DNA from: Xenorhabdus bovienii SS-2004
GTDB taxonomy: Bacteria > Pseudomonadota > Gammaproteobacteria > Enterobacterales > Enterobacteriaceae
Reading direction: 5' to 3'
DNA length: 64,000 nucleotides
Assembly (NCBI RefSeq): GCF_000027225.1
Contig: NC_013892.1
Location: 2,666,001 to 2,730,000, forward strand
The notes under the pieces are model-generated. The model saw only the letters and a list, made by a program, of their open reading frames with translations. It ran no database searches and was not told where the DNA came from. Position 1 is the stretch's first letter; every line of letters begins with the position of its first letter. Below are positions 1-41,713 of the stretch, one piece after another. The translations under genes and the position numbers were made by a program.

Positions 1-223
1 AACACTCAGCATCCTCAAGGGAGGCTTTGGCAGGGACGTAATTGGGAAGATCGATAATCTCAGACGGCGCACCGGCAGCTAAGAGTTCTTCCCGCGAAAA
101 AAATGACACAAGTTCGTGTCCCGCCAATAGATTGCGCCAAAAACTTTGCCAGTCGGGACTTTGGGGAAACCGGCAAGAAATGCCAATAATAGCGACTTCA
201 CTACCCGTATATTCACGCTTCAT
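1..223 (-). CDS. Type I polyketide synthase, N-terminal ketosynthase fragment (runs off left edge)
   Basis: Reading leftwards from ATG at 223, the frame stays open to base 1 and gives about 74 residues. They start with MKREYTGSEVAIIGISCRFP and continue with a FW..LL.G.E.....S.EEL.AAGAP pattern. This is the usual beginning of a type I PKS beta-ketoacyl synthase domain. The start codon overlaps the stop of the upstream NRPS gene (ATGA), so the two are translationally coupled. The catalytic Cys-His-His and all later domains lie outside the window. By position it would extend the peptide made by the preceding NRPS modules with a carboxylated extender unit. Whether it carries its own acyltransferase cannot be seen; a free-standing acyltransferase two genes upstream suggests it may be served in trans. 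Confidence 0.85.
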   Translation of the reverse strand, partial: MKREYTGSEVAIIGISCRFPQSPDWQSFWRNLLAGHELVSFFSREELLAAGAPSEIIDLPNYVPAKASLEDAEC

Positions 224-3200
224 GATACTGAACTTCCTTTCACTTTACGCCGCCTGTCCGCCAGTCTGTTTTTACCTGAGCGAGCCGACGACAGAGTATT
301 TTCTTGGGATAGTTGCTTGCCAGAATCGGATAGCATCACCTCGGCTTCCTCATTTTCGGGAGACAAGTTGCTCTGTTTGATCCAGTTTGCGAAGGCGGTG
401 ATGGTGGGGTGTTCGAATAAGACGGCAACGCCGATTTTCTGGTTGAATGCCCGCTGCATTTGGGATTGCAGCGCGATTATTTTTATTGAGTCACCACCTG
501 CATCGAAAAAATTCACGTTTGCATCAACCACCGGAGTTTCCAGAACCGCGCTCCAGACAGCCTGTACTTTCGCTTCGACAGGATCGGTCAACGGCGCATG
601 ATCCAGGGCAGTTTGTATTGGCAATCGCTGCATTTCGCGTTCCAGCAGTCGCTGACGATCGATCTTACCGGTAATGGTGCGTTCAAAACCGTCTATAACC
701 ACAATAAGCGCAGGAATCCACGACTCTGGAAAATGCCGACGAATATGTTCTCGCACACGGGACTCCAGCATGGCAGACGATTCGCAGCTATCGATGAAAA
801 GACGCCATTGCCGTTTTCCTTCCCGCCCCGTTGCAGACAACAGGCAACAAGCCTTAACCTCCTCCAATGTCTCAACGGCACGTTCCAGTTCACGCGGTTC
901 AATGCGAACGCCGTTCACTTTCACTTGATCGTCAATCCGTCCCAGATACTTAAAGCCTGACTGATGAGAAAAAGTGACCGCGTCACCTGTGCGATAAAAA
1001 GCCTGCTTACTGTATTTGACAAAATATTTATCGGACTCAACCGGATTGGTGGCGTAACCGTGAGCGACCGCCTGCCCCCCAATCCAAAGCTCGCCCCGTA
1101 TCCCCGCAGGCAAAGGTTTACCGAAGACGTCCGCGCAACAGGCAATGACGTTTTGAATTGGCCAGCCGATAGAAACGTCCGCAGAGAGAGACTGTCTGGC
1201 AGTCAGGCAGTCCACCGTCGTCTCACTCGGACCATAATGATTGCTGACGGCGTAACCCTGCCGCAGCAAATCATCCCTGAGCCATTGAGGTAATTCTTCA
1301 CCGCCGAATATCCACAAGCGCATAGCCGGGAAAAAAGGAGCGCCCTGAATAAGCTGTGCAATGGCGCCCGGAATAAAGTTAATCAGCGTGATGGACTCAT
1401 CCCGCAGCAGATCGATAAACGTCTGTCGCTCCAACAATACATTGGATGATGGATAAATCAGCGTAGCTCCGGCAACAAGACTGCCAAACAGATCTTCGAC
1501 GCTGGGATCGAAATTCAGGTCGGTCAGCCCAAGTACCCGATCCGCAGGCGTAAGGTGGGTTTCCCGGACAAACCAATCCAGCAAGTTTGCCACTGATTCA
1601 TTACGGATAGAGATGCCTTTAGGTGCTCCGGTCGTTCCTGACGTGAAGATGAAGTAAAACTCATCTTCAGACCGCCGATTGCGCCATAACGTTGGTTCAC
1701 CAGTGGACTCCGGCCATGTTATCTCTGTTTCGATATCCAGCAGCAAGTAACGCCCGATGTCAGCATCAAGTTCCCCGTTCAAGGAGGCACCACATAAGAC
1801 AATGCCGCAATTCGCCAACGCCAACAGATTTTTTTTACGTTGCCGTGGATCTTTCGGGTTTATACAGAAGTAACTGCCGCCACTGAACAATATCGCCAGA
1901 ATCGCTTGAGTGGATAACAGTCCCTTTTCGAGATGGACAGCCACTCTATCGCCCGGAACGAATCCCGCTCCCCGTAACCGTTCCTGCAAGGCAAAAACGC
2001 CCCGCAATAGTTCGCGATTACTGATCCGATGCTGGCCTTCAATCAGACTGATTTCTTGGGGTGACTGGTTAAGCCGCTGATAAATGCACAGCAGCAACGC
2101 ATTGATATCCGGCGTCTGTGCATTGTGTTCTCCCATGACCAAAGCGGCTTCTTCAGCGCCGTCTGGGTTGAGTTTTAACACCAGATCTTCAATCCGTACA
2201 TCCACAGACCCCTTAATCAGATCCGCTGCCAAAGATTCAAACGCGTTAAACACCCTATTTACCGCGTCAGGATCACTTGCAAAAGTTTCCCCCGCACTTA
2301 ACTCAACTGTCCATTGATCCACACCGGAAACCGTCAGAGTCAAACCAAAATGCGTCGTCTCTTCACTGTGCAAATCCGTCAGAAATGCACCACAATCAGC
2401 GTTCTGTAACTCGGTATCGATCGGGTAATTATCGATAACGACAATAGAGTCATAGAGTTCGTCACGTATTCCCGTCTCTTCTCTTATCAACAGGGGTGGC
2501 GTTTTTTCATGTTGATGAGTCTGTTGCAGCGCTTGAAAAACCGCGCGTAATGCTACTTCCAGACGCCATTTTCCGTCGAGCGTCAGGATCAGCGGCACCG
2601 TATTCGTAAACAGTCCCAGAGGTTGGCGGTCGACGTTTTGTGTCAACGCCGCTCCCCTGCCGGAAAATGTACAACCGAACGTAACGGTTTTTTGGAAAGT
2701 CAACTTGGCCAGTACCAGCGCCCAGCACAGATAGATAAAACTTGCCGGAGTGACACCTGCACAGCGACAAATCAACTCTATCGCCGCTTTACGTTCTTTA
2801 TCCCATATGCGGTTCGCGATGACTTTTTCATCTGTTATTTTTTCTCCCGCTTTATGCTTAATCTCGGTATGTTCGGCAGAACGGAACAGCGGTTCGGCCA
2901 GCAGTTTTGTCGTCGCCGAAGTTTCTCCGTCTGGCAGGTATTGGAAAACACGATGCCAGTGTTCACGACTGAGCCTCAGTTCTTCTTGACTTAGCCCTTT
3001 CCAGAGTTGCTGCGAATAAAGTCGTACAGCCAGAGGAACGATTTTTTGCTGGCGCAATCCCTGTAACCAGAGCGAAATCAGTAGTGAGCTACTCCAACCA
3101 TCCATCAGAATATGGTGAAAAGAGAAAGCGATCCTTAAGATTCCCGCGTCAATATCGTGGAAACAAATGATCCGAAACACCTCGGCATCCAGCTCAAATG

Positions 3201-3564
3201 GCGTCGCTTTCGACTGTGCCAGCCAATCGAGGTCGCGTTGTTTTAGCGACGCCTCCGGGGTAGTTGAATCAACGCGGATATATTCAAGCGGTATCCGTGG
3301 TAATGCGTATACCGCCTGATGGGGAACACGAATGCCTTTCCAGACAAAAACCGCCCTCAGAGCAGGCTGTGACTGCTGTATCTGATACCAGACATCGAGG
3401 ATCTCCTCCTCACTGACATCCGCTTTCAGGCTGAATGCCACGCCAATATGATAGGTACTGTTACCATCTTTCAAAGCGTGAAACAGCAGGCCGTTTGCTT
3501 GCGGCGTTACCTGTAATAATTCTTCGATATAATTGGGTTTGTTGGAATCATTGAGCTGCTTCAT
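220..3564 (-). CDS. Nonribosomal peptide synthetase, one module C-A-PCP
   Basis: A 1114-residue NRPS with one module. The condensation domain carries an intact HHILMDG motif at residues 150-156. The adenylation domain has TSGTTGAPKG near 641-650, HYGPSET near 776, YRTGD, GRIDDQVKVNGVRIEPRELE and a TGKIDR motif. A carrier domain has GGDSI as its phosphopantetheine site, followed by a linker of about 60 residues rich in Ser, Lys and Arg that could be a docking tail. The pocket residues read by eye are D686, P687, E690, N729, I752, G754, H776, V784, D785 and K. D686 indicates an alpha-amino acid, but I cannot assign the code. The gene overlaps its neighbours on both sides by 4 bases. By position it condenses its amino acid onto the D-Asn made by the C-A-PCP-E protein and hands over to the PKS. 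Confidence 0.93.
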   Translation of the reverse strand: MKQLNDSNKPNYIEELLQVTPQANGLLFHALKDGNSTYHIGVAFSLKADVSEEEILDVWYQIQQSQPALRAVFVWKGIRVPHQAVYALPRIPLEYIRVDSTTPEASLKQRDLDWLAQSKATPFELDAEVFRIICFHDIDAGILRIAFSFHHILMDGWSSSLLISLWLQGLRQQKIVPLAVRLYSQQLWKGLSQEELRLSREHWHRVFQYLPDGETSATTKLLAEPLFRSAEHTEIKHKAGEKITDEKVIANRIWDKERKAAIELICRCAGVTPASFIYLCWALVLAKLTFQKTVTFGCTFSGRGAALTQNVDRQPLGLFTNTVPLILTLDGKWRLEVALRAVFQALQQTHQHEKTPPLLIREETGIRDELYDSIVVIDNYPIDTELQNADCGAFLTDLHSEETTHFGLTLTVSGVDQWTVELSAGETFASDPDAVNRVFNAFESLAADLIKGSVDVRIEDLVLKLNPDGAEEAALVMGEHNAQTPDINALLLCIYQRLNQSPQEISLIEGQHRISNRELLRGVFALQERLRGAGFVPGDRVAVHLEKGLLSTQAILAILFSGGSYFCINPKDPRQRKKNLLALANCGIVLCGASLNGELDADIGRYLLLDIETEITWPESTGEPTLWRNRRSEDEFYFIFTSGTTGAPKGISIRNESVANLLDWFVRETHLTPADRVLGLTDLNFDPSVEDLFGSLVAGATLIYPSSNVLLERQTFIDLLRDESITLINFIPGAIAQLIQGAPFFPAMRLWIFGGEELPQWLRDDLLRQGYAVSNHYGPSETTVDCLTARQSLSADVSIGWPIQNVIACCADVFGKPLPAGIRGELWIGGQAVAHGYATNPVESDKYFVKYSKQAFYRTGDAVTFSHQSGFKYLGRIDDQVKVNGVRIEPRELERAVETLEEVKACCLLSATGREGKRQWRLFIDSCESSAMLESRVREHIRRHFPESWIPALIVVIDGFERTITGKIDRQRLLEREMQRLPIQTALDHAPLTDPVEAKVQAVWSAVLETPVVDANVNFFDAGGDSIKIIALQSQMQRAFNQKIGVAVLFEHPTITAFANWIKQSNLSPENEEAEVMLSDSGKQLSQENTLSSARSGKNRLADRRRKVKGSSVS

Positions 3565-4805
3565 ACTCCGCGCCCCACTGCATCAAAGAGGCTTTGCAAC
3601 TTCATCTTTTCCACAGATAAAGAGGTGTCTCCCCTTCCTTCAATCATTTCCAGCCATTGCTGTGTGTGCTGATGAAGAAAGCCGCAGTCTTCAAAGGGCA
3701 GATGTGAGCCTTTTATCCTTTGTGTTACTGCATCCCTGATTTGACGCAGTTGTGCGATCGCTGCCGCATCCTTGATGTCAGGCAATCTGGAGCTATAAAG
3801 ATGGAAATAACAGTGCCTGAAAAACCGCTCCAATCGGCTCTCTGCGGTGCTTAGTGCCTCAGCGAAAGTGAAAATTTCATCCGGTTCGCATAAAGGTTGC
3901 ATGGGCAATCCCGCGCGCTGATTCAGATAACTCAGTACTGTTTTCGGGGAAATTTCCAGATAGCGGGTGACACCGTTTTGCGCGGCATACTGCAAACTCC
4001 GCAGCCACTGCACGGGAGAAGTCAGATGCTGTAAAATTGATGGTTTGAGATCCTCAGCAGGTAACTCTGCGCCACTGACGTTGCAGACCAGTCTGGAGAG
4101 CAGCGTCCCCTGCTTGTCTGTGTCAGGCAGGAAATCAAGCAATGCCGCCAATTTCTCTTGCGCTTCCATCATTAAAGGCGAATGAAACGGGCCACCGATT
4201 TTCAATGGATAAAGCAACCCGCCCAGCGCTTCCATACGCGGCGCAAAGCGTCGAATGTCTGCCATAACGCCAGAAACCGTCACCTGATCAAACGCATCAA
4301 TGGCGGATACATACAATTCTATACCATCGTCTTTTCTGGCTTTATCCACTGCCTGTACCACAACCTCGGCAGGAAGGTGCAATACCCAACACATGTCGCC
4401 CTGTTCGTAACGACGGGCGCAGGCTTCCACGACTTCCGAGCGCAGGTTAACCACTTTGGTCAACGTCGCCAGATCAAGATAGCCAGCAGCGCACAGAGCC
4501 GGATACTGCCCCAGACTGTGTCCCATCATAAACTCAGGAACAAGCCCACAGCGCGTACGTAATATGCCCGCAATGGCGACCGTAGTCGCCGTGAGCGCCA
4601 GTTGGGCAATGCGCACTTGTTTCAAGGTGTCGCGCTGTTCGCCATGAATAACACTAAATAGATCGACCTGAGACAGCTCCGACACTTCTTCCAGACAGGC
4701 TCGATATTCGGGATAGGTTCTGAATGCGGCAAACATATCGGGTTGCTGTGCGCCCACGCCGGGAAATAAAAATACCGTCTTCGCTGAGTCGGTAACCGTT
4801 CTCAT
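3561..4805 (-). CDS. Free-standing acyltransferase (trans-AT) of PKS/aminomalonyl type
   Basis: A 414-residue protein of the malonyl-CoA:ACP transacylase fold. It starts with VFLFPGVGAQQ, has the nucleophile elbow GHSLGQ with Ser97, the conserved LRS Arg122, and the catalytic His208 in GGPFHSP. About 90 residues beyond the normal fold (from about 320) are unassigned. No ketosynthase or carrier domain is attached, so it must act in trans. Zwittermicin (ZmaF) and colibactin (ClbG) clusters use a free AT to move aminomalonyl units from a discrete ACP to the PKS. The neighbouring ACP, acyl-CoA dehydrogenase and Ser adenylation genes suggest the same job here; that is inference, and a malonyl-specific trans-AT is the alternative. 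The gene overlaps the upstream and downstream NRPS genes by 4 bases each. Confidence 0.9.
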   Translation of the reverse strand: MRTVTDSAKTVFLFPGVGAQQPDMFAAFRTYPEYRACLEEVSELSQVDLFSVIHGEQRDTLKQVRIAQLALTATTVAIAGILRTRCGLVPEFMMGHSLGQYPALCAAGYLDLATLTKVVNLRSEVVEACARRYEQGDMCWVLHLPAEVVVQAVDKARKDDGIELYVSAIDAFDQVTVSGVMADIRRFAPRMEALGGLLYPLKIGGPFHSPLMMEAQEKLAALLDFLPDTDKQGTLLSRLVCNVSGAELPAEDLKPSILQHLTSPVQWLRSLQYAAQNGVTRYLEISPKTVLSYLNQRAGLPMQPLCEPDEIFTFAEALSTAESRLERFFRHCYFHLYSSRLPDIKDAAAIAQLRQIRDAVTQRIKGSHLPFEDCGFLHQHTQQWLEMIEGRGDTSLSVEKMKLQSLFDAVGRGV

Positions 4806-7800
4806 GCTGAGGCTCCATTAATAATGAGATCGAGCTCCGGTTGTGAGAGCTGACAAAGGGGAAAATCTGCCGGAATTAACGCCTGTTCCACTTGTGCGCG
4901 ATGTAACGCATCGTTCCAATCGGATAGTCTTTCGTTTAATTGCATCAGGTAGCGTTTGGCATCCACGTCGCCAGCTTCGGGAATGCCCAGTCTCAACTCA
5001 ACAAAAACAGAACCGGATTCGCGATCGTCGTAAATAAGCACATCAAAGTCAGCCACGCTCTTTTCATCGGGATGCCGAAAACCACCCGACAGGGAATCAA
5101 CCAGATTAAAATGGCGCCATGTTCCGTGTTCGCTCAGTCCGAAACCAATATCGTTGATGCAGATGAGCGGCCGCGTCCGCACACCATTCAATCCCAGTTG
5201 TTCTTTCCAGTCTGGGCTGTCTTCATACCGTTGTGATTTCAATGTTCGTAAAAAGAAACCGGGCAAAAAACCGCTTTGATAGCCAGAGGGAACGTGGAGA
5301 TTCAGTTGATTGAAGCCAGTAAACCAACCGACGGAATTCGCCATCACCGCATGCCAGACAGCGGGCGTCTCTGCCTCAGAGAATAAGCGTCCGTGGTTTT
5401 CAAACAGCACCGTAGGCTGTTCCGGTAACATGCCGTTATCCTGCACAATCTCCAGCAAAGCAGCGGCAATCAACTGCGTCCGTTCAGCTTTGTAGCGTTG
5501 TTCCATCAGCCGGAAATCCTCGCCGGTAACTGATAGCGCCAGCGTGACGGGAACGGCTGCCGGCGGATAAAAGGCATGGTCATGTGGTGCAGGTTCAGCA
5601 TAAGAGACGTGATCCCGCAGCCATTTCCCCCAGAGGAATGCACCCTGCTCAACAACAGCGCTGGCTTTATCGACATTAGCTTTATCAACGTTGAGCAGAA
5701 CCGCCGATTCGTTCAGCACCTGATCCAATTCATCCAGTAAGAAAATCCATGAATGGACATCACAGATCAGATGATGGCAAACCCAGATCAGATAATTTTT
5801 GTTCGCAGCCGGATCACATACCACTTCATGCACACTCGGCTTATTTTCCAGACACACTTCGCCTTGCAATCTGTGCAGTCTGCCCTCAAGGCTTTCGTCT
5901 TGCGCCAACACTTGATCCTGCAATAACATATCGCCGTCATGTTGCTCTGGCTCCAAGGACGAAAAATAAAACTCACTCAAACTCCGATTCGATCTCAAAG
6001 CGAAAATTTTATGTCTGGCTTTTACCGCTGCCACCGCGCTATTTATACGCCCGGCGCAAATGGATGACGGTAACTCAAGCACCACACCCTGTTGCAGCCG
6101 TTCACCGTATTTAAAGTGATGTTCCTGAAACCAGCGGACACTGGGTAAATAGTTCACCCAGTTTGCTTCCGGCGCTTCCAAAACAGTCGAGTCGGTGACA
6201 GCAACGTCTGGTTTTTCCGAACAAACTCTTTCAAGCACAGCCCCTAAGGCGGTTGACGTTAACAGTTCACTTGCGCCGACCCGAACGCCTTGTCTGGCGA
6301 GTAATGCGACAAGGCGGATTGCTTTGATTGAGTCACCTCCCTGCGCCAGAAATGAGGCGGTCAGATCCACGGTTTCCGGCCAAATCGGCCTTAAAAACTC
6401 GCCGTCCAGCCATGTCGGGAGTGAATAAGCTTCCGGCTCTCGCTGACCTTGCCTGTCAGTTGCACGAAACTGAGCAGGATCGGCTGCCGCCAGCTTTGCT
6501 TTAGCCGCAACAGTGAGCGCGGCCATATCAACCTTGCCATTGGCATTCATCGGCCAAGGCTGCACAGTACAATAGAGACCCGGCAGCCAAGCGTCAGGGA
6601 TTGTGTTTTTCAGGTTTTTCTGGAATGCAGAGTTGTCGTATGGCACAGATTGACTACTGCACAAAGCGACCGTTTCATATCCATCAATGGCCAGTTTCAG
6701 CGCTTTCAACTCCCGACGGTCATCGTCATGTCCAAGATCCGCCAGAGCTTCTGCCACAGCTTTCTCAATTTCCGCAGGGTGAATCCGATGACCACGCACT
6801 TTGAATTCATCGTCAATGCGCCCAAGGCAATAAAATATTCCCTGTTCATCCTGCAAGCCCAGATCGCCAGTACGATACCAACGATGCTGCCCGTCGGCGC
6901 TGCATACAAACTGCGCCTCCGTCTGCGCGCTGTTGTTGATATATCCATCCGCCAGCACTGAACCGCCGATCCCTATTTCTCCTTTAAATCCACGGGGCAT
7001 ATTTTGCCCCCAAGCGTCTCTTATCGACATCTCCGCTTGCCCCAGCGCTTTACCGATAGGCGCAATCACGGTGCTCGCTCTGTCATTCTCATCAGATTCG
7101 CTCATCGAACTTTCGTTCATCAAATAAATACAGCACCCTACCGTCGCCTCTGTCGGCCCATATTCATTGATCACTCTGCTGCCTGAAGGAAAGAAGCCAA
7201 GCGCTCTGTTCACCAAAGCGACGGACAAATTTTCGCCGCCAACGATAAAGGTCAGCGGATTCCGTCTCCGGACGCTATGCTCAATCAATAATGAGAGATG
7301 GGATGGTGTGCATTTCACTCCCGTCAATGCCTCATCGGAGAGAAGGGTTCGCAGTAGTTCCGGGTTATCGCGAATGTCCTGTTCGTGGGCTTGTATAAAC
7401 CCCCCCGATAAAACCGGGATCAGAATCGCTGTCTGCGTCAGATCAAACCCAAAGGAAGTAAACAAAGGTGCATTAAACGGCGCTTCAGAAGCGTATTCCC
7501 CTTTGGCTGCCAGTGCATAGTTCGCCAGTGCAACAGGGGAAATGACAACACCTTTTGGCTCTCCGGTTGACCCTGAGGTATACAGGATATAAGCAGGATT
7601 GCTGCCTGTTTGTTGTGACCGGGCTTGTTCGGGATGTATGAATTCTGGCTGGATTTCCGGATGCAAGCCCGCGTCACATAAATCTTTATCCAGCGAAGCG
7701 CGTAACAGAGGCAAATTCAGCGCCTCCGCAAGGTCTTGATCCGTTCCCGTATAAATACAGAGAGACGCGCCCGAATTACGGACGATAGTTGATAATCTCG

Positions 7801-9463
7801 CCAACGGCGTGGTGGGACAAACAGGAACCACGGTCACATTTTCAATAAGACAGGTCAAATAGGCGAGCGTCATTTCAGGCGAGCGCCTTCCCAGAATCAC
7901 CACCGGATGGTGTTCGAAACGTCGATCCCGCCTGTCACGCAATTGCGCACTAAACTTGCAAATCCATTGCCATCCTTGACGGTAGGTCAGATTACCCACT
8001 CCCTCACCGGCTTCCTGTTTGAACAGCCAGTTATCGGCATAACGCTGAAAAGCGTCACATAAATGAACGCCGATCGGCTCTGCGAGACAATCAGTCTGTA
8101 CGTTGACTTCTTTTGTTTGCCTTGTGGTTTCTTGTTGCCCCATCACTTCAGCGGCAGCTTCCAGTGCATAATCAATGACGGTTTGCAGGAATGCGTGACA
8201 TTGGTCGGAAGACCAGACTTTGCGAAAATCGGCTTCAATCTTGAAGTCACCGCCCTCAAAGCGATCATGGATGTGCACAGTGGCAAACAACGCCTCCACT
8301 GCCTGAATATGATCAATCTCTATTTCAGCACCTGAGACGGTTTTCTGAAACACGCCTGTTTGATAGGAAACGCCGAAAGCCGGCACAATCTGTCTCCATT
8401 CCTGCGATGCGAAATCTCCCCAACGGGCGCCCGGAGCATACCGTGAGTGCATCACCGCTTTTTGCAGATGTTTTCTGAGGCTACGATAGCAATCCGCGAC
8501 GGTTTCCCCTGCCTCACGAAATACCGGGATCAGAACGGGAGCCACCGCCATGCCCACTGACTGTTTTTCGTCTTCACGCCAACGATTCAGCATAGGTGCC
8601 TGTAATAACGCGCCATTGCCATCTTCAATCACCATTTGTGTATAGGCAACTGCGGCGAAAAACAGCCGAAAAACTGAACCTCCGCGATGGCTGAATTTAT
8701 GCAGCATCTCGTTTTGCGCTTCGCTCAAAGCGATCCGTACACGCATCGTGTGCGGTTTCGAACTACGATAATCCCCTATTGGGTAGCGGCAGGAGATTTT
8801 GGTGGCGCTGACTGACGCCGTATCACCATAAGTATTTGGTTCACCAAAAACCGTCCGCCAATACGCCGCATCCCTTGCCATACGCCGGGAATTCTCGTAA
8901 TCCCGCTCTCTCTCGGCGTGAATAGAGTACAAAGGGGAATTCACCTTCCCCGACCTCTGCACCAATGCATCGGCCAGACGCTCTAGTAATATCGCCAACG
9001 CCGCACCATCCACCGCAGCATGATGCGCTTTCACAAACCATCCCGATTGTTCCTGTCGGAAACGCACCGCAAAAATCCGTATCGGCGTGAGTGATAAGTC
9101 CTCTTCCACCAGCAGTTGACGCTCCACCCAACTTTCAAAAGCCGAACCGGGGTCTGGATGTCTGCTGAAGTCCACTCGTTCCACGGCGGCCTGAGGCGTG
9201 TTGTGCCGAATTCCACGCCATAATATTTCCCAACCAACAACTTCTGGATGAACCGTTTCTAAAGGATCGTTGACGAAGCCGATATGGCACACATCCTGCG
9301 TATTCCTGACAGTTTCGGCCGCCCGCACAAGTTGATCTAACGACACATTTCCACTCAATCGTGCCACACCGCCCAAATAAAATGGGTAGCCGGACAGATG
9401 AAACGCTTCCATTTTGAAAACGGCCTGTTGTGACCGCGATAGCTCAAAAGTCGGTTTATTCAT
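4802..9463 (-). CDS. NRPS C-A(Asn)-PCP-E, candidate N-acyl-D-asparagine prodrug module
   Basis: A 1553-residue single-module NRPS. The order is: condensation domain (HHAAVDG, residues 147-153); adenylation domain with YTSGSTGEPKG (628-638), NEYGPTEAT, YRTGDLG and NANGKVD; carrier site GGDSI with Ser1045; and a C-terminal epimerization domain with HHLICD..SW, an ENHGR motif and VGWFTGFNQLNL. The pocket residues D674, L675, T678, K717, I740, G742, E767, V775, G776 and K977 give DLTKIGEVGK, one position from the known asparagine code. No module lies upstream in the operon, so the first C domain could be a starter type that acylates Asn. Together this predicts N-acyl-D-Asn, the leaving group of the xenocoumacin, zwittermicin and colibactin prodrugs. 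No activating peptidase is visible in the window. The E-domain motifs are somewhat divergent. Confidence 0.93.
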   Translation of the reverse strand: MNKPTFELSRSQQAVFKMEAFHLSGYPFYLGGVARLSGNVSLDQLVRAAETVRNTQDVCHIGFVNDPLETVHPEVVGWEILWRGIRHNTPQAAVERVDFSRHPDPGSAFESWVERQLLVEEDLSLTPIRIFAVRFRQEQSGWFVKAHHAAVDGAALAILLERLADALVQRSGKVNSPLYSIHAERERDYENSRRMARDAAYWRTVFGEPNTYGDTASVSATKISCRYPIGDYRSSKPHTMRVRIALSEAQNEMLHKFSHRGGSVFRLFFAAVAYTQMVIEDGNGALLQAPMLNRWREDEKQSVGMAVAPVLIPVFREAGETVADCYRSLRKHLQKAVMHSRYAPGARWGDFASQEWRQIVPAFGVSYQTGVFQKTVSGAEIEIDHIQAVEALFATVHIHDRFEGGDFKIEADFRKVWSSDQCHAFLQTVIDYALEAAAEVMGQQETTRQTKEVNVQTDCLAEPIGVHLCDAFQRYADNWLFKQEAGEGVGNLTYRQGWQWICKFSAQLRDRRDRRFEHHPVVILGRRSPEMTLAYLTCLIENVTVVPVCPTTPLARLSTIVRNSGASLCIYTGTDQDLAEALNLPLLRASLDKDLCDAGLHPEIQPEFIHPEQARSQQTGSNPAYILYTSGSTGEPKGVVISPVALANYALAAKGEYASEAPFNAPLFTSFGFDLTQTAILIPVLSGGFIQAHEQDIRDNPELLRTLLSDEALTGVKCTPSHLSLLIEHSVRRRNPLTFIVGGENLSVALVNRALGFFPSGSRVINEYGPTEATVGCCIYLMNESSMSESDENDRASTVIAPIGKALGQAEMSIRDAWGQNMPRGFKGEIGIGGSVLADGYINNSAQTEAQFVCSADGQHRWYRTGDLGLQDEQGIFYCLGRIDDEFKVRGHRIHPAEIEKAVAEALADLGHDDDRRELKALKLAIDGYETVALCSSQSVPYDNSAFQKNLKNTIPDAWLPGLYCTVQPWPMNANGKVDMAALTVAAKAKLAAADPAQFRATDRQGQREPEAYSLPTWLDGEFLRPIWPETVDLTASFLAQGGDSIKAIRLVALLARQGVRVGASELLTSTALGAVLERVCSEKPDVAVTDSTVLEAPEANWVNYLPSVRWFQEHHFKYGERLQQGVVLELPSSICAGRINSAVAAVKARHKIFALRSNRSLSEFYFSSLEPEQHDGDMLLQDQVLAQDESLEGRLHRLQGEVCLENKPSVHEVVCDPAANKNYLIWVCHHLICDVHSWIFLLDELDQVLNESAVLLNVDKANVDKASAVVEQGAFLWGKWLRDHVSYAEPAPHDHAFYPPAAVPVTLALSVTGEDFRLMEQRYKAERTQLIAAALLEIVQDNGMLPEQPTVLFENHGRLFSEAETPAVWHAVMANSVGWFTGFNQLNLHVPSGYQSGFLPGFFLRTLKSQRYEDSPDWKEQLGLNGVRTRPLICINDIGFGLSEHGTWRHFNLVDSLSGGFRHPDEKSVADFDVLIYDDRESGSVFVELRLGIPEAGDVDAKRYLMQLNERLSDWNDALHRAQVEQALIPADFPLCQLSQPELDLIINGASA

Positions 9464-11084
9464 GGCTTAAGTTCCCACCTCTGTGATGATCGGTGAAAAA
9501 CAGATCCCGCATATTTTGGGCTATCGTTTTCCTGTCAAGTTTTCCTGAGCCAGACCTCGGCAGATTTCGGGCTTGCCAATAACGAGTAGGTAACATGTAA
9601 GCCGGCACCTGCGCAGCGAGAAATTGGCGAATATCCTGCTCATTAAGCTCCCTTTCGCCTGCAACAATCGCCGCGACCAGCCACTGTTCCTGATCTTCAT
9701 CCTCAACCACGCAAGCAACGGCCTCGGTAATAGCAGGGTAATTGAGCAGATGGTGTTCTATTTCTCCCAACTCAATCCGCAATCCGCGTAATTTGACTTG
9801 CGTATCCTTCCGTCCCTGACAGAAAAAGCCCCGTCCTTTCTCATGCCACCCAAGATCACCGGTCAGATATAGCCGCTGCTGAAGTTCTGGATGGAAGATG
9901 AATACCTTATCCGTCAGATCTTTTCGGTTGTAGTAGCCCTCTGCCAGACATATTCCACCGATGGCAATTTCGCCTTCTTCCGAATCCGCTTTTAACGTCA
10001 GACTGTCTGGTTCCAAGATATATAACTGGCATCCAGTAAGAGGCTGTCCAATGGGAATAGCGTCCGGCACGGTTTCCACGCAGTCATAAAAACTGACATC
10101 AATGGCCGCTTCCGTGGGGCCGTATAAATTGGTCAACAGGCAGCGCGAAGCCAATATTTTCTGAAATTGCGTCACCAGACTGGCCGGCAATGATTCCCCA
10201 CTCACATACACCCTGCGCAGCGCCGATAATGATGGCGTTTCAACACTGTCATCCTGAAGCTCTTGTAGTTCTTGCAGTACGGGCTTCAGCAAACTGGGGA
10301 CGAAGTGGACAACCGTAATATTTTCGCTTACCAATGCAGCGACTATGCCTCTGGGGAATGCTTCCAATCCCGGTTGCAGCAGATAATTGCTCGCACTATT
10401 CAGGGCAGGTAAAAAGAGTTCCCATAAAGACACATCAAAAGTCAGCGCCGTTCTTTGCAGGATGATGTCCGAATCCGTCATCTCACTGTGAGCCTGATGC
10501 CACTCTAATCGGTTAATGAAAGCGCCATGATTAACTAACACACCTTTGGGAATGCCAGTCGTGCCGGAAGTGAAGATTAAGTAAGCCGGATCGGTAGCCT
10601 GTCGTTGACGCGCTTTTTTGCCCGTGTTTTCTGATTGATGAAAATTAAGGCAGCGGTGATCCAGACAATGAGAGGTGGAGATTTCTGTCAGAAATTCACG
10701 CCCGATCAGTTCCAGTCCGGGTTTGGCCTGAGTAAACAGACTTCCCTGTGCCACATTGCAAAAAGCGATACGGCATTGAGCCGTCGCAAACATGGATGCT
10801 AACCGAGCGACAGGCGTTTTCGCCTCTACAGGAAAATAAACACCACCAGCAAGCAGTACCGCATATGCCGCCACCAGAAATTCCGGGCTGCGCTCAAGGC
10901 CAATAGCAACACAATCGCCCTGACATATACCGCGCTCACTCACCAGATAATGAGCCAGTCGTTGCGCTCTTTCGTATAATTCGCCCCAAGATAAAGCGTT
11001 TCCTTTTCCCCACCGTATCGCCGGATTCTGGTTATCTCTCGCCGTACTTTCGAAGTAATCAGTAATAAATCGACCAGTTGCCAT
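9456..11084 (-). CDS. Free-standing adenylation domain, predicted serine-activating
   Basis: A 542-residue adenylation enzyme with no condensation or carrier domain. It has FTSGTTGIPKG (171-181), FDVSLWEL, NLYGPTEAA, LTGDLGW, GRKDTQVKLRGLRIELGE and a C-terminal SGSGKLDRK. The pocket residues are D217, V218, W221, H260, Y293, S295, L320, I328, D329 and K, giving DVWHYSLIDK. This matches known serine codes except at one variable position. In aminomalonyl-ACP pathways a Ser adenylation domain (ZmaJ, or the first A domain of ClbH) loads a discrete ACP, and the seryl hydroxymethyl is then oxidised to a carboxylate. The ACP and dehydrogenase genes lie directly upstream, which fits. It overlaps the following NRPS gene by 8 bases and follows the dehydrogenase gene after 137 bases. 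Confidence 0.92.
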   Translation of the reverse strand: MATGRFITDYFESTARDNQNPAIRWGKGNALSWGELYERAQRLAHYLVSERGICQGDCVAIGLERSPEFLVAAYAVLLAGGVYFPVEAKTPVARLASMFATAQCRIAFCNVAQGSLFTQAKPGLELIGREFLTEISTSHCLDHRCLNFHQSENTGKKARQRQATDPAYLIFTSGTTGIPKGVLVNHGAFINRLEWHQAHSEMTDSDIILQRTALTFDVSLWELFLPALNSASNYLLQPGLEAFPRGIVAALVSENITVVHFVPSLLKPVLQELQELQDDSVETPSLSALRRVYVSGESLPASLVTQFQKILASRCLLTNLYGPTEAAIDVSFYDCVETVPDAIPIGQPLTGCQLYILEPDSLTLKADSEEGEIAIGGICLAEGYYNRKDLTDKVFIFHPELQQRLYLTGDLGWHEKGRGFFCQGRKDTQVKLRGLRIELGEIEHHLLNYPAITEAVACVVEDEDQEQWLVAAIVAGERELNEQDIRQFLAAQVPAYMLPTRYWQARNLPRSGSGKLDRKTIAQNMRDLFFTDHHRGGNLSHE

Positions 11085-11221
11085 GATGCCGACATCCTCT
11101 GAGTGCTGGATTTATTCAAATCTCATTGTGACCTGACGTTACAGGCGAACATCAGGCGATAGAAACCTGTCAGCCGGACGCAACACGCCAGACTTTTCAG
11201 GGGGAATAATGTTGAGACGAT

Positions 11222-12385
11222 TTACGGAATAGTCTGTGCGGCGTTATGGCGATACCGATTGCATACTGCCTTGCCGATCAGCATTTTTTGAAGTTCATTA
11301 CTGCCTTCAACAACTTGCAATATTTTCGCATCCCGATAGAGCCGACTGATGCCGTTGCTTTCATCGCAACCGTGACCACCGTGAATCTGTACCGCTTTCG
11401 CTGCTGCGATGCCAGCTTCATGCGATGAGAAAAGTTTGGCTTGAAGGATCTGCTCAAGAGCGTCTTCATCCCTTGTTTCTTTGGCTTTTGTCGCTGATAA
11501 ACAAATGAGTTGAGAGGCCAGCAGGCTACTGGACATTTCCGCCAGATAGCCGCGAATGATACCTTGATCCGCAAGTAACGTATCAAAGGTGATGCGGGAA
11601 TTAGCCCTGCGAGCGGATGCCGCCAATGCGGCCTGCTGTATTCCGAGCGCCGCCCAGGCCACGCTGATGCGGCCATAGTCCAAGGCATTGTTAGAGATTA
11701 GGTTTTGTCCAAATCCGGGTTTTCCGACAATATTGGTCTTAGGAACCCGACAATCTTTGAAATCCAACACTGCCAAATATGCACTCTTGAAGCCCAGCAT
11801 ATTTTTTTTGGCGGTCACTTTTAGCCCCGGAGTATCTTTAGGAACCAGCACTGCGGTATCCAGCCCCTGATATTTACCGAATACCAGAAATAAATCCGCA
11901 ATCTGGGCAAAAGTGATCCAAGATTTTTGCCCATTAGCCCTGAGATAATTTCCGTCTTCTGCAAACTGCGTCGACAGATTCTTGGAATCTCCGCCAGCGG
12001 ACACTTCCGTTTGCGCGAATGCACCAATGATTTCACCCTTTACCAGCGGTGCCAGAAAGCGTTGTTTTTGATCTTGAGAACCCCAATCTTCAATAGTTTT
12101 CAACACCATGGCGTGTACATTCAGCAACCCCGTGAGCGAACCACTCCCTGCGCCGATAGCCATGTTCAGCAATCCGAAGGTCGTGACATCAAACCCCAGA
12201 CCACCATTTTCGGGTTTCGCCAACCCACCCAACCAACCGTTATGTGCAAGTTTTTGCACAACCGTTGCAGGGATCGCTTCTGCCAAATCCCATTCGTCAG
12301 CATAAGGCGCAATTTCAGTCGCTGAAAATTGCTCAAATACCTGTAACCACTCGTTTTGCAAAGGTGACAAAAAGCGATTAAGCAT
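11222..12385 (-). CDS. Acyl-CoA dehydrogenase-like flavoenzyme acting on ACP-bound substrate
   Basis: A 387-residue protein spanning the usual three parts of the acyl-CoA dehydrogenase fold. FAQTEVSAGGDS and GQKSWIT match the flavin and substrate-binding middle domain. IHGGHGCDESNGISRLYRDAK followed by VEGSNELQ matches the C-terminal helical domain with its glutamate-containing motif. The start overlaps the ACP stop by 8 bases, so the two proteins are probably made together. Family members beside a discrete ACP (FkbI, ZmaI, ClbF) oxidise hydroxyacyl- or aminoacyl-ACP on the way to methoxymalonyl, hydroxymalonyl or aminomalonyl extender units. With a serine adenylation gene next door, aminomalonyl is favoured. 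A proline-to-pyrrole dehydrogenase (PltE type) was considered, but the adenylation code is not proline. Confidence 0.9.
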   Translation of the reverse strand: MLNRFLSPLQNEWLQVFEQFSATEIAPYADEWDLAEAIPATVVQKLAHNGWLGGLAKPENGGLGFDVTTFGLLNMAIGAGSGSLTGLLNVHAMVLKTIEDWGSQDQKQRFLAPLVKGEIIGAFAQTEVSAGGDSKNLSTQFAEDGNYLRANGQKSWITFAQIADLFLVFGKYQGLDTAVLVPKDTPGLKVTAKKNMLGFKSAYLAVLDFKDCRVPKTNIVGKPGFGQNLISNNALDYGRISVAWAALGIQQAALAASARRANSRITFDTLLADQGIIRGYLAEMSSSLLASQLICLSATKAKETRDEDALEQILQAKLFSSHEAGIAAAKAVQIHGGHGCDESNGISRLYRDAKILQVVEGSNELQKMLIGKAVCNRYRHNAAQTIP

Positions 12386-12629
12386 TTACCGCCACCTTTC
12401 TGTCCAAAAAGTTACAGACAGCCTGAATGCTGGAAAAATTGGCATTATCAAGGTCATCAATTTCGACTTTGATTTTGAAGTTTTTTTCGAGAAAGGAGAT
12501 TAGCTGGATAGCGGCCAAAGAGTTAACCAAGCCTGTTTCGAAGATATTGACCGAATCGTCTAAATCCTGCTTGCCAGCAAGTTTGCACAGGTATTCAGAC
12601 ACTAATTTTTTACGCGCAGATACGTCCAT
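12378..12629 (-). CDS. Discrete acyl carrier protein, extender-unit type
   Basis: An 83-residue acyl carrier protein. The phosphopantetheine serine lies in FETGLVNSLAAIQLISFLE, with Asn where most carrier proteins have Asp before the Ser. As I recall, the VNSL form and the following FKIKVEIDDLDNANFSSIQA pattern resemble FkbJ/ZmaH/ClbE-type ACPs that carry methoxymalonyl or aminomalonyl units. The ATG at 12629 has an AGGA site 8 bases upstream; a GTG one codon earlier (12632) is possible. This is the first gene of the operon, so the promoter should lie in the AT-rich spacer to its right. The acyl-CoA dehydrogenase gene overlaps its end. Confidence 0.88.
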   Translation of the reverse strand: MDVSARKKLVSEYLCKLAGKQDLDDSVNIFETGLVNSLAAIQLISFLEKNFKIKVEIDDLDNANFSSIQAVCNFLDRKVAVNA

Positions 12630-12632
12630 CAC

Positions 12633-28356: not shown

Positions 28357-28434
28357 ATGCGATTCGTCAGCATCAAAACGCCTGAACAGCAATCGTTACT
28401 ATCGTTCCATCAAAATCTGGGACTAATCACCTAG
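28357..28434 (+). pseudogene. IS110-family transposase scrap
   Basis: A 25-residue run MRFVSIKTPEQQSLLSFHQN followed by LGLIT and a stop matches the internal IS110/IS1111 transposase segment (MRFV.IK...QQ....HR). Both sides are lost. It ends against the last codons of the convergent gene. Confidence 0.5.
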
Positions 28435-29989
28435 AATCCCTATCTTCTCCCATTTTAGTATCAGCAATAATCTCTGTAATATACCAATGATTTTTACTTT
28501 GGTTTTGCCTCAAAAAATATTGATTTTCACCAATGGAAAATGGAATTAAATATTGATAACTCGTATCCCATGGTTCTGCGTGTTCGTTAACATGCTCAGG
28601 AACACCCTTACTATATATGTAAGAAATAAACCAATAGTTATCATAGAATCTCTGACCAGTGTAATAATACTTTCCTTTAATAAAGTATGGAAACTGAGGA
28701 TAGTAATAATATGACCACGTATCAGAATATGCTAGCTTACCTAAGGTTCCATCTTTGTTAAACTCAAATGTATAAATATTTTTAGTAGTCTTTGTATGAC
28801 AGTATATATATTGATTACCTTCCATTGAAATAAAGAATACAACTCCGTAAAAATTATCCCAGTTTTGTTGACATATCGGTTTACGATTCATTTTTACTTT
28901 TGTAAAAATTTCGTAACATATAATAGGCCATCCATTTCCTTTACCATGAAGTAAGATAAACTGTCTACCTCCAATATTATATGCAAACCCAACATCATAA
29001 CTAACATCAAAATATCCACTATCTATTATTTCTTTCTGTCCGTTTTCATCCAACTTTGCAATCATCCAAAATGATTTATCTGTATTTTGTGGTGCATTAA
29101 TAAAGTCCTTGGCTAAACCAAAAACATATTGCTCATTCTCAATAACAAATGGGAACATTAAATCATAATAATTTACCCACTTTTGCCCGGTCGAAGTTTG
29201 CTCTCCCTGTTTCCCGCCAGCAAGCAATTTATGTACAGTGACCAAATGATCGCATTGGCGCTGGCGTAAAAGGTATTGATCATTATTAATAGAATAAGTA
29301 AAAATTGTTCTAATATATATTTCGTTACTAGGGGGATGAGCATCACAATCCAGGTTAGGCTGGAAATGAATTTGTTCCGTATTATGAGATATTTTATTAC
29401 CACTCAATTGGCCTGCCAGGGTGACAGTCTCACCACTATTATTTGCATCATAAAGTTCAAAACTCACATTACCTAACGGATCAGTATTAATAGAAGTGGT
29501 CTGGGTTACCTTATTTTGCTCAAAAGAAGCAGAACCTGTCACAATTAAATCCAACTGGCGGTTTTTGAGATCAAACACGGTTCCCATTCCCGTCAGAATC
29601 GCATTAACTTTATTACTCTGTTTACCATCTGCCATTGCATAGTCACCAGTAACACTAAAGTTAAGCTGATAGTCTGTTGTTATTAGATCGTAAGGTAATA
29701 TGCCAATCTGCTTATTATTCTCCCTAAGGGAAACAGTCAGTTGACCATTGCCACCTGTCATTGGCCCCACAACCAAGACAGATGTTTCTCCAGTGCCGCC
29801 AATCTTGCCAAAAAGTCTTTTTTTACCTGTATCTTCACCATTAACAACAAAGCTACCGACTGAGCATTCAAAAACAATCTCTAACCCAGGTAATGACTCC
29901 GAATATTCATAAGCTAATATATTAATATTAACCGCCGATCTATCTTGAAATACTTCATATGATGGAGTAAAGTTTATTGTAATAGCCAT
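28427..29989 (-). CDS. Ig-like plus six-repeat beta-propeller-like protein, function unknown
   Basis: A 520-residue protein, not recognised as a named family. The first ~220 residues look like bacterial Ig-like/Big-1 beta modules (ADGKQSNKVNAILTG, FDLKNRQLDLIVTGS, DPLGNVSFELYDANNSGETV). From about 225 to the end there are six repeats of about 47-55 residues. The pattern is W..xY....PF.I...QY......W.I..I, for example YQYLIPFSIGENQYFLRQNQ and YYPQFPYFIKGKYYYTGQRF. Such repeats suggest a beta-propeller, as in many lectins; that is inference. There is no signal peptide. It is last of four co-oriented genes behind an inverse autotransporter, 6 bases after the previous gene, so translation is probably coupled. 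The coding sequence is markedly AT-rich. Confidence 0.85.
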   Translation of the reverse strand: MAITINFTPSYEVFQDRSAVNINILAYEYSESLPGLEIVFECSVGSFVVNGEDTGKKRLFGKIGGTGETSVLVVGPMTGGNGQLTVSLRENNKQIGILPYDLITTDYQLNFSVTGDYAMADGKQSNKVNAILTGMGTVFDLKNRQLDLIVTGSASFEQNKVTQTTSINTDPLGNVSFELYDANNSGETVTLAGQLSGNKISHNTEQIHFQPNLDCDAHPPSNEIYIRTIFTYSINNDQYLLRQRQCDHLVTVHKLLAGGKQGEQTSTGQKWVNYYDLMFPFVIENEQYVFGLAKDFINAPQNTDKSFWMIAKLDENGQKEIIDSGYFDVSYDVGFAYNIGGRQFILLHGKGNGWPIICYEIFTKVKMNRKPICQQNWDNFYGVVFFISMEGNQYIYCHTKTTKNIYTFEFNKDGTLGKLAYSDTWSYYYYPQFPYFIKGKYYYTGQRFYDNYWFISYIYSKGVPEHVNEHAEPWDTSYQYLIPFSIGENQYFLRQNQSKNHWYITEIIADTKMGEDRDSR

Positions 29990-29995
29990 ATTATT

Positions 29996-31372
29996 TTACT
30001 CAAATGTTAGCGGATCGACAAAAACGATAGTGTTATTAATTTGTTCCATATAAATACCTTTACCACTGGCATTAATAGAAAAATTAGCCCTAAATGCTTT
30101 ATTTGAAGTTATTTTATAGCTTAAAGTTTTATTAGAAACAGGATTATTTATTGGTATAGAACTCTTAACAACATCATCAATTATGATATCTGGTGTATCA
30201 AACTTAACATTAATAGTCTCAATTCCAGTTATTAGCGGTTCAATAAAAAGGAAACATTGGCACGTTCCATCTGCAACACCATAAGAGCTATAAGTATATT
30301 TAATTTCTTCACTTGATGATAATAACCAAACCGAAAAATTCAAACAAACCTTATAAGCATTAACAGGATCTAGATAGTTAAGAGTTAGAACACTATTTTT
30401 AGCAATATCTTTACTATAAATATTCAGATACCCCACTCCATTGTTATTTATTTCCCCCAGTGGGGTTCTATTAGAACCATCACTAAAGTAAGCATTGGAT
30501 ACTTGGGCAATAATTGCATTGCTATTTGATCCTGTATACACTACTGCTGTTAAAAAAGGTTTTACATCAGGAGATTCACTACTAGTACCAATATTTTGAG
30601 TCAATTGTACTTTGACATTAACATTATCTAAATCGTTATAAATAGAAATTTGAGATAAAGAGGATGTTATATTAATATCAGCACTATAAAAACCAGCCAA
30701 AATAGATTTAGCCTCTACAAAATTAATCCCACCCTCACCTGTGCTTATTGTATAATCAGCATAGTCTTGATTTACCTGATCTTGGAGCAATACTTTGTCA
30801 GATTTTAAAGTATTTATTGGGCTATTTTCTTCATCTAAAATCTTTAATGTAATAGTGATGGTATCCCCAGCCGTAAAACCTTTAAAGTTTGTACGAATCC
30901 TTATTCCTCTTTCACGAGAAATACTACTTAAATATAATTTACGATTTTTAATGTCAGTAAACGTTATTTCATTATCTGAAGCGTTCATAGAAGGGTCCTC
31001 TATAATATTAACACTTGAAATTGGTGAAGTATTTTTATTGTCATTTAAACTTGTCACTGTATATACTGCTTCGTATAATCCATATGTATGAAAATCGTTT
31101 ACATTAAAAATCACAGAATAATAATCATAGTCGTTATCTAAAACATCTGGCGTTACACAGTAAGTAATGCTTTTTATTTTAATCTTTGAATTATCTTTTA
31201 GATAGAGTTCACCATCTATACTATCTAATAGCTCTACTCCATCATATTTATTCACTTTCATTACTAAATATTTAATTCCCATCGTTTTAACTTCAAGGAT
31301 ATTAATGACGTTATTTGAATCACTTTGGGGGAATTCAGGTTTAGATAAAACGATGTTATTTTTTATATTCAT
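29996..31372 (-). CDS. Hypothetical beta-rich protein of the adhesin-linked cassette
   Basis: A 458-residue protein with no family I can name. The sequence is full of alternating hydrophobic/polar stretches and Asn, Ser and Thr, typical of stacked beta-sandwich domains. Segments such as FTAGDTITITLKILDEENSP and AGFYSADINITSSLSQISIY look Ig-like. There is no signal peptide, membrane helix or catalytic motif. A GGTGAT site precedes the ATG at 31372. It lies 66 bases after the 500-residue gene and 6 bases before the propeller-like gene, so it belongs to the same transcript. The role is unknown; structural or adhesive function is a guess from composition and neighbours. Confidence 0.78.
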   Translation of the reverse strand: MNIKNNIVLSKPEFPQSDSNNVINILEVKTMGIKYLVMKVNKYDGVELLDSIDGELYLKDNSKIKIKSITYCVTPDVLDNDYDYYSVIFNVNDFHTYGLYEAVYTVTSLNDNKNTSPISSVNIIEDPSMNASDNEITFTDIKNRKLYLSSISRERGIRIRTNFKGFTAGDTITITLKILDEENSPINTLKSDKVLLQDQVNQDYADYTISTGEGGINFVEAKSILAGFYSADINITSSLSQISIYNDLDNVNVKVQLTQNIGTSSESPDVKPFLTAVVYTGSNSNAIIAQVSNAYFSDGSNRTPLGEINNNGVGYLNIYSKDIAKNSVLTLNYLDPVNAYKVCLNFSVWLLSSSEEIKYTYSSYGVADGTCQCFLFIEPLITGIETINVKFDTPDIIIDDVVKSSIPINNPVSNKTLSYKITSNKAFRANFSINASGKGIYMEQINNTIVFVDPLTFE

Positions 31373-31438
31373 ATATCACCATTTTAAACATAGTTTTAAT
31401 GTAATTTAAATTATACATATATGCCTAGTGAATTGATT

Positions 31439-32941: not shown

Positions 32942-33071
32942 ATGTTTATTCCTCTTATAAACTTCATATTTTTAATTATCTATGCTATAGAAAAAAATCC
33001 CTTTACCACAGTAAGTTAATTAAACATTTTATATTATATATAAAATAAAAATATAACTATCTTCCAAACAT

Positions 33072-33104
33072 TTCCTTACTCCTTGATATATTAGGAGCAA
33101 GGAA
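33072..33104. terminator. Inverted repeat between the two paralogous genes
   Basis: TTCCTTACTCCT and AGGAGCAAGGAA form 12-base arms with one mismatch, 85 bases after the stop of the 658-residue gene. There is no clean T-run on the minus strand, so it may attenuate rather than fully stop transcription into the next gene. Confidence 0.45.
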
Positions 33105-33188
33105 ATTTATTATTTTCAGTTATTCGTTATAATAAAATACTATTTCCACTACTTTATGAAATCACATCACACATACATTCTCTTTCGA

Positions 33189-41507: not shown

Positions 41508-41713
41508 CGTAGTTCTCCTGAAAAACTCGCTCACTATTTTTACGCCAGCACAAAACCGTGAATTAAAAGATCATTTATCTATTACCTATCCACTATCTCT
41601 GGTTGAGGGCTGATATTTTGATGATTTCAGTTAGATACTACTTCGAGGCACATATACGGAAAATCAACGTCATGTTGATGTGTATATATGAATGTTAAAT
41701 AGCGAAAAAATAA

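Follow-up and report, generated by a model that had tools for sequence, protein, structure and literature searches.

The closest described relative of the locus considered here is the rdb (rhabdobranin) cluster of Xenorhabdus budapestensis DSM 16342. According to the published text, this cluster has been activated, its peptidase gene has been deleted, and N-myristoyl-D-Asn species have been found (PMC9177418). The cluster makes N-acyl-D-Asn-capped pre-rhabdobranins with an aminomalonyl unit, and the pre-rhabdobranin structure solved from X. budapestensis bears a Pro-Ser dipeptide on the aminomalonyl nitrogen (PMC9177418). The same text reports eight rdb clusters, seven from Xenorhabdus and one from a Photorhabdus strain, and does not make Pro in the nonribosomal peptide synthetase (NRPS) RdbH part of the rdb definition (PMC9177418). 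Here we analyze a ~43 kb minus-strand polyketide synthase (PKS)/NRPS cluster of 14 genes in Xenorhabdus bovienii SS-2004. Its first 12.6 kb lie in the window, by which we mean the whole stretch of 64,000 nucleotides analyzed (contig NC_013892.1, positions 2,666,001 to 2,730,000 of the forward strand). With a probability of about 0.83, this is an rdb cluster in a Ser-Ser variant, an assignment that draws on the gene content, the specificity codes, the replacement of a core in RdbH, and the peptidase residues, all read from the sequence. As far as the published text goes, SS-2004 may well be among the eight rdb clusters.

The operon extends ~30 kb leftward of window base 1 and has been compared by blastp and tblastn with X. 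budapestensis and nine other genomes. The shared order is acyl carrier protein (ACP), acyl-CoA dehydrogenase (ACAD), Ser-type adenylation (A) domain, Asn-type CATE, free acyltransferase (AT), CAT, PKS, peptidase, RdbH, RdbI, RdbJ, GNAT, and 3-hydroxyacyl-CoA dehydrogenase (3HCDH). This order is found in X. bovienii T228, Photorhabdus tasmaniensis, Photorhabdus khanii, X. budapestensis DSM 16342, X. vietnamensis, X. mauleonii, X. lircayensis, X. yunnanensis, Chromobacterium subtsugae, and, to the contig end, Parachitinimonas caeni. In T228 all 14 genes are present in identical order with 89–99% protein identity, and the cluster is therefore a conserved unit. The Parachitinimonas contig stops before the positions of the cupin, GNAT, and 3HCDH genes, so their absence there is uninformative. 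The Chromobacterium genes are masked by long antisense open reading frames (ORFs) in the ORF list and have been shown by tblastn and plus-strand ORFs. The gene letters A–J and P are assigned here after the published names rdb1A, RdbH, RdbI, and rdb1P. A preliminary description of the first 12.6 kb had not recognized the gene order; this was true for its reader, but the published rdb cluster has this same order. The cluster comparison it proposed yields collinearity with rdb, while neither the T-shaped branch nor the Ser-type core for priming was within its view.

The variant feature resides in RdbH (A-T-C-A-T-C; genome 2650016–2656555, minus strand; Pfam and domain hidden Markov models, HMMs). 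The first A domain, a feature of the published classes, is present at residues 27–551 and has a Ser-type core. The 13 RdbH proteins examined take in all nine genus genomes found with both AT and peptidase; their first A core is Pro-type in nine, Ser-type in two, and deleted in two. The Pro type has been assigned by code in X. budapestensis, X. vietnamensis, X. mauleonii, X. lircayensis, X. yunnanensis, C. subtsugae, and P. caeni, and by similarity and motifs in two further genomes (G016 and G017). The Ser type occurs in SS-2004 and T228, whose RdbH thus has Ser and Ser where the characterized producer has a Pro-type followed by a Ser-type core, and the core has been lost in both Photorhabdus. 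Since the Pro type is also present in Chromobacterium and Parachitinimonas, it is probably ancestral. A protein search with RdbH residues 440–760 returned 5020 matches, the best 120 of which were considered, mostly general NRPSs. The first core also has the Ser code in three additional X. bovienii protein records (two partial, one representing 67 sequences); when the specificity-code pattern was applied to six protein records, no code was found in one of them (P0180).

The first A core of SS-2004 is complete, and its code residues and motifs are the same as those of the second core. Over 13 segments of 30 residues (61–450), the identity between the first and second A domains of SS-2004 is 90–100% in 12 segments and 70% in one. 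Over the same segments the first A domain shows 16–67% identity to the Pro-type first A domains of X. lircayensis, X. budapestensis, and C. subtsugae; the two A domains of X. lircayensis, compared with each other as a control, are 13–63% identical. Residues 451–630 of the SS-2004 first module are 73–80% identical to X. lircayensis (Pro type) and 11–53% identical to its own second module, and residues 31–60 are likewise nearer the Pro type (87% vs 57%). Segments 1–30 and 631–660 are poorly aligned and carry no inference. The replacement boundaries are located near residues 55–62 and 447. A tree of 20 cores, in which neither Photorhabdus is represented by a first core, places both X. bovienii first cores within the Ser clade (100/100). 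A tree of 21 A-sub+T pieces, from which the short first-module remnant of P. khanii was left out, groups the X. bovienii first modules with the Pro-type modules (100/100).

The DNA of the two cores (residues 62–447) is 92.9% identical in SS-2004 and 99.2% identical in T228, while the corresponding value for A-sub+T is 50–52%. The alignments and trees point to a first core (~residues 60–450) in X. bovienii that was copied within the protein from the second, Ser-type core and is flanked by an A-sub and a carrier domain of Pro-module ancestry. In an 801-bp stretch, the two cores are 100% identical in T228 and 94.5% identical in SS-2004. At residues 130–180, the identity of the SS-2004 cores falls to 82.4%, and it is the second SS-2004 core that departs from the other three copies. 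For this reason, gene conversion between the cores is, as judged from these alignments, patchy. The exchange of cores within A domains has been described before (PMC9205934, in its available text).

Because a Pro-loading core seems to have been overwritten by a Ser-loading copy, the SS-2004 branch is predicted to be Ser-Ser instead of Pro-Ser. The Pro-type and Ser-type codes of X. budapestensis RdbH fit the published Pro-Ser branch, which supports this prediction. The code positions follow the PheA numbering. A broader proposal, for which we consider the odds about even, is that repeated gene conversion of the A core in X. bovienii keeps the priming and extension modules of RdbH in step and changes the T-shaped product from Pro-Ser to Ser-Ser. 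In the same proposal, X. bovienii and the core-deleted Photorhabdus would be parts of a three-way natural subdomain exchange, and RdbH would be an independent side line whose last condensation (C) domain acylates the aminomalonyl nitrogen. In the literature searched, the Ser-type first core and the other variant features are apparently unreported. The variant is a natural experiment in which the substrate-choosing core alone has been exchanged in one module, with A-sub and carrier unchanged. It offers cut points tried by evolution and a concrete product difference that can be checked by liquid chromatography-mass spectrometry, and it hints at which enzyme makes the unusual branch of rhabdobranin.

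It is possible, though we consider it unlikely, that the swap has little effect: with its first module inactive or skipped, RdbH would leave a one-residue (Ser) branch in X. bovienii, as would be expected of Photorhabdus. The two Photorhabdus clusters without the first core keep the downstream remnant and the rest of RdbH, and the core may therefore be dispensable. In X. bovienii, on the other hand, the first core is complete, has the code residues and motifs of the second, and stays like it at the DNA level (92.9% in SS-2004, 99.2% in T228). An assembly artefact as the source of the near-identity of the two cores is very improbable. The T228 genome is a draft, so its 100% stretch of 801 bp may be an assembler effect, but SS-2004 is a single contig whose two cores differ at 7.1% of bases, and the first core has the Ser code in the three further X. 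bovienii records as well. The least probable explanation, a zwittermicin/colibactin-like cluster unrelated to rhabdobranin and making a new product class, could appeal to aminomalonyl parts and a D-Asn prodrug logic that are common to those systems, but it is refuted by the gene-by-gene collinearity with X. budapestensis DSM 16342, which, apart from the cupin gene and the ABC part, runs at 57–88% identity.

Several observations weigh against the assignment to a Ser-Ser variant of rdb. No product of the SS-2004 cluster is reported in the passages of the rhabdobranin literature that were searched. The specificity codes are no more than predictions, and that of the Pro type is incomplete, with two positions in alignment gaps; the substrates of RdbF and of both RdbI A domains are unassigned. 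The terminal C domain of RdbH has Ser in place of the first His of the HHxxxDG motif and a weaker Pfam score (1.4e-18), and residues 1–300 of RdbI match no Pfam family. Finally, RdbI bears a thioesterase (TE) domain even though RdbJ comes after it in gene order, so that the non-linear order of action proposed below is only one possibility.

For the Ser-Ser variant, we infer all of the SS-2004 chemistry, as well as the sequence in which RdbJ and RdbI act and what each C domain does. In zwittermicin-type systems, Ser on an ACP is oxidized to aminomalonyl by a dehydrogenase pair. In SS-2004, RdbC would load the ACP with Ser, and oxidation of seryl-ACP to aminomalonyl-ACP would fall to the dehydrogenase pair. 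The aminomalonyl-ACP set is complete in the cluster (Ser-type A domain, ACP, ACAD, 3HCDH, free AT, and the AT-less PKS module of RdbJ) as judged by the list of genes of Zma/Clb-type systems. RdbD would make the N-acyl-D-Asn start, RdbF would add one residue, and RdbG would add one fully reduced malonate (C2 unit), while the AT-less RdbJ would receive aminomalonyl from the free AT. No condensation domain precedes the first A domain of RdbH, which suggests that RdbH would prime a separate dipeptide of its own from this domain. Its terminal C domain, with the motif SHACIDG in 13/13 RdbH, is suggested to acylate the aminomalonyl nitrogen with the dipeptide, giving the T shape. The terminal C domain of RdbJ (motif HHIVCD in 10/10 RdbJ; four further proteins of comparable length in this comparison are RdbD or RdbH) could pass the chain to RdbI, in which no complete C domain is recognizable ahead of the first A domain and which has the TE at its end. 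The prodrug would be exported by the peptidase-ABC fusion, and periplasmic cleavage would remove the N-acyl-D-Asn. The combination of an N-acyl-D-Asn prodrug line with aminomalonyl-ACP machinery, put forward in the preliminary description, is supported by the parts found and by the published text on the X. budapestensis orthologue (PMC9177418).

The window part of the cluster occupies positions 1–12632, with all genes on the minus strand. The RdbA-type ACP (84 aa; 12378–12632; PF00550, E 3.8e-08) has a VNSL carrier serine motif, is 97.6–98.8% identical in T228 and the two Photorhabdus, and is the predicted seryl/aminomalonyl carrier. The RdbB-type acyl-CoA dehydrogenase (387 aa; 11222–12385; PF00441, 2.4e-30; PF02771, 2.4e-22) is predicted to carry out an oxidation step toward aminomalonyl-ACP; among PDB entries it matches FkbI (1r2j, E 7.6e-43), with 13 general acyl-CoA dehydrogenases ranking above. 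The RdbC-type free A domain (542 aa; 9456–11084; PF00501, 8.4e-74) has the Ser code DVWHYSLIDK. The RdbD-type C-A-T-E NRPS (1553 aa; 4802–9463; Pfam and our own domain HMMs for C, A, and T) has the Asn code DLTKIGEVGK and is the predicted maker of the N-acyl-D-Asn cap. Its E region gives a Condensation match (4e-07) of 29.5 bits, slightly below the Pfam cut-off of 30.6, with HHLICD at 1230. The RdbE-type free AT (414 aa; 3561–4805; PF00698, 2.2e-18; GHSLG motif) is predicted to transfer aminomalonyl onto the AT-less RdbJ module. The RdbF-type C-A-T NRPS (1114 aa; 220–3564; Pfam) has the code DPENIGHVDK. It is followed by the start of the RdbG-type PKS (KS-AT-KR-DH-ER-ACP, 2165 aa; window 1–223, genome 2659726–2666223, the remainder left of the window; ORF, Pfam, and AT and KS motifs).

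All seven features that the preliminary description had placed here, from the ACP to the PKS start, lie where it put them. Its Ser and Asn codes are matched exactly by an independent extraction, and the VNSL motif has been read from the sequence again. Nearly all the genes overlap, as it had noted: 5 of the 6 junctions do so by 4–8 bp, and at the remaining one the dehydrogenase and the free A domain are separated by 137 bp. The best Pfam E-value of each window protein ranges from 3.8e-08 (ACP) to 8.4e-74 (free A domain). Chance or wrong domain assignment is ruled out by these values together with the collinearity with relatives.

The genes to the left of the window are also on the minus strand. 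RdbI (A-T-C-A-T-TE after ~280 residues; genome 2643445–2650026; Pfam and domain HMMs) has a TE, a feature of the published classes, which matches PF00975 on residues 1935–2193 with 27.7 bits against a cut-off of 26.4; on a longer slice the score is 26.1 bits, slightly below this cut-off. The thioesterase motif GYSLG is present in 10/10 RdbI compared. The RdbI of genome G017 (L059, 2180 aa) lacks the GYSLG motif of the 10 others and is perhaps of the TE-less type of the published classes. RdbJ (KS-KR-ACP-C; genome 2638451–2643460; Pfam) gives no Acyl_transf_1 match at E 0.001, despite matches for KS, KR, ACP, and C. The active-site motifs of the KS are legible in both PKSs (RdbG and RdbJ). The cluster continues with a Cupin_8 protein (genome 2637340–2638518; Pfam), which has weak PDB matches (to JMJD6 and others) over ~50 residues, a GNAT (genome 2636428–2637156), and the 3HCDH (genome 2635506–2636357). 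The GNAT has a single weak PDB match (3iwg, 0.00035) and a single NCBIfam match far below its cut-off, and with matches this weak we infer a role in self-resistance only provisionally.

The G+C content of the cluster is 51.3%, compared with 41.7% and 43.0% in the flanks. At its far end are IS6/IS240-type and IS1-type transposase genes, and at its near end are fliE and fliF. The IS1-type genes form two adjoining pairs, one of which has a shorter second ORF (101 vs 140 aa); the coordinates of the IS1-type pairs and the IS6/IS240-type gene are L006:7050-8366 and L013:4487-5200.

The distribution of the cluster has been followed with the AT. Its relatives comprise 34 full-length proteins at 49–95% identity and three partial ones at 58–60%, and the next matches are at ≤34% (71 rows). 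A scan of genome contigs for AT loci gave 10 in named organisms, which were used, and three weaker ones, which were set aside. Within the own genus, 9/30 genomes have both the AT (E ≤1e-100) and the peptidase (E ≤1e-80), and 2/198 genomes sampled from the family have the AT, namely SS-2004 itself and one of another genus. In a search of plasmids with the AT, all matches stayed below 60% identity (651 records, 18 with 80% coverage). The Cupin_8 gene occurs in the clusters of 7/10 relatives, and no match to it was found in the draft genomes of X. budapestensis and X. yunnanensis; SS-2004 is predicted to have an oxygenase step that is not present in X. budapestensis. Beyond Xenorhabdus and Photorhabdus, rdb-type clusters are found in Chromobacterium subtsugae PRAA4-1 (L021) and Parachitinimonas caeni (L022), which widens the family past the nematode symbionts, and AT relatives are also present in Hahella and Massilia. 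In X. mauleonii (L046–L048), the free Ser-type A domain gene is split into two ORFs (204 and 337 aa), compared with one in the relatives, and may therefore be broken.

The preliminary description had suggested looking left of base 1 for a 3-hydroxyacyl-CoA dehydrogenase, an S12-type D-Asn peptidase, and an exporter. The first is the 3HCDH described above, and the other two are joined in one polypeptide, an S12 peptidase-ABC transporter fusion (genome 2656548–2659856, minus strand; Pfam). The closest solved structures to the peptidase part are ClbP entries (7mdc, E 1.6e-39). The ClbP positions E92, S95, K98, Y186, S/T188, N331, W460, and W466, numbered after the available text of PMC9889268 and read onto the printed alignment, are kept in 8/8 cases examined. 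Their equivalents in SS-2004 are E127, S130, K133, Y224, T226, N379, W531, and W537; S130, K133, and Y224 are the catalytic SxxK/Y residues of the ClbP type, N379 and T226 are those of the D-Asn pocket, and W531 and W537, which stand for the tryptophans of the ClbP membrane domain, sit in an alignment segment without significance alone. In ClbP, N331 enforces the D-Asn specificity, according to the same text (PMC9889268). The full-length fusion is present in SS-2004, T228, both Photorhabdus, Chromobacterium, and Parachitinimonas, and the seven other genomes of the nine in the genus match the peptidase part only.

Elsewhere in the window, four adjoining ORFs of 520, 458, 500, and 658 aa lie at 28427–35165 on the minus strand. 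They have no Pfam match at 1e-5 and no NCBIfam match above cut-off, and the third and fourth are paralogous (29% over 559 aa). An inverse autotransporter (35516–39025, minus strand; IAT_beta, 1.6e-97) is located beside a GDSL-lipase autotransporter (39525–41534, minus strand).

Compared with the X. budapestensis rdb cluster, SS-2004 has the same genes in the same order from the ACP through the 3HCDH and identical codes in the Ser loader, in RdbF, and in the second A domain of RdbH, and its Asn code is one position apart. It differs in the first RdbH core, which is Pro-type in X. budapestensis and Ser-type in SS-2004, and in two further features, the Cupin_8 gene, which has no match in the X. 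budapestensis draft genome, and the peptidase-ABC fusion (1102 aa, compared with the 565 aa peptidase of X. budapestensis). The rdb-type clusters of P. tasmaniensis and P. khanii share the fusion, the cupin, and all other genes at 73–100% identity, but their first RdbH A core is deleted, with the downstream remnant retained. ClbP and other D-Asn prodrug peptidases resemble the SS-2004 peptidase in the catalytic SxxK/Y residues and in the equivalents of N331, S/T188, E92, W460, and W466, as far as the available text of PMC9889268 describes them; ClbP has a three-helix membrane domain, whereas the SS-2004 peptidase has a fused C-terminal ABC exporter. The A-domain recombination described for wollamide and desotamide, in the available text of PMC9205934, is alike in that much of the A core, including the pocket, has been replaced by an intragenomic copy while the A-sub has been kept. 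There, however, a different NRPS locus supplied the copy and the receiving gene has been duplicated, while in SS-2004 the copy came from the next module within one protein.

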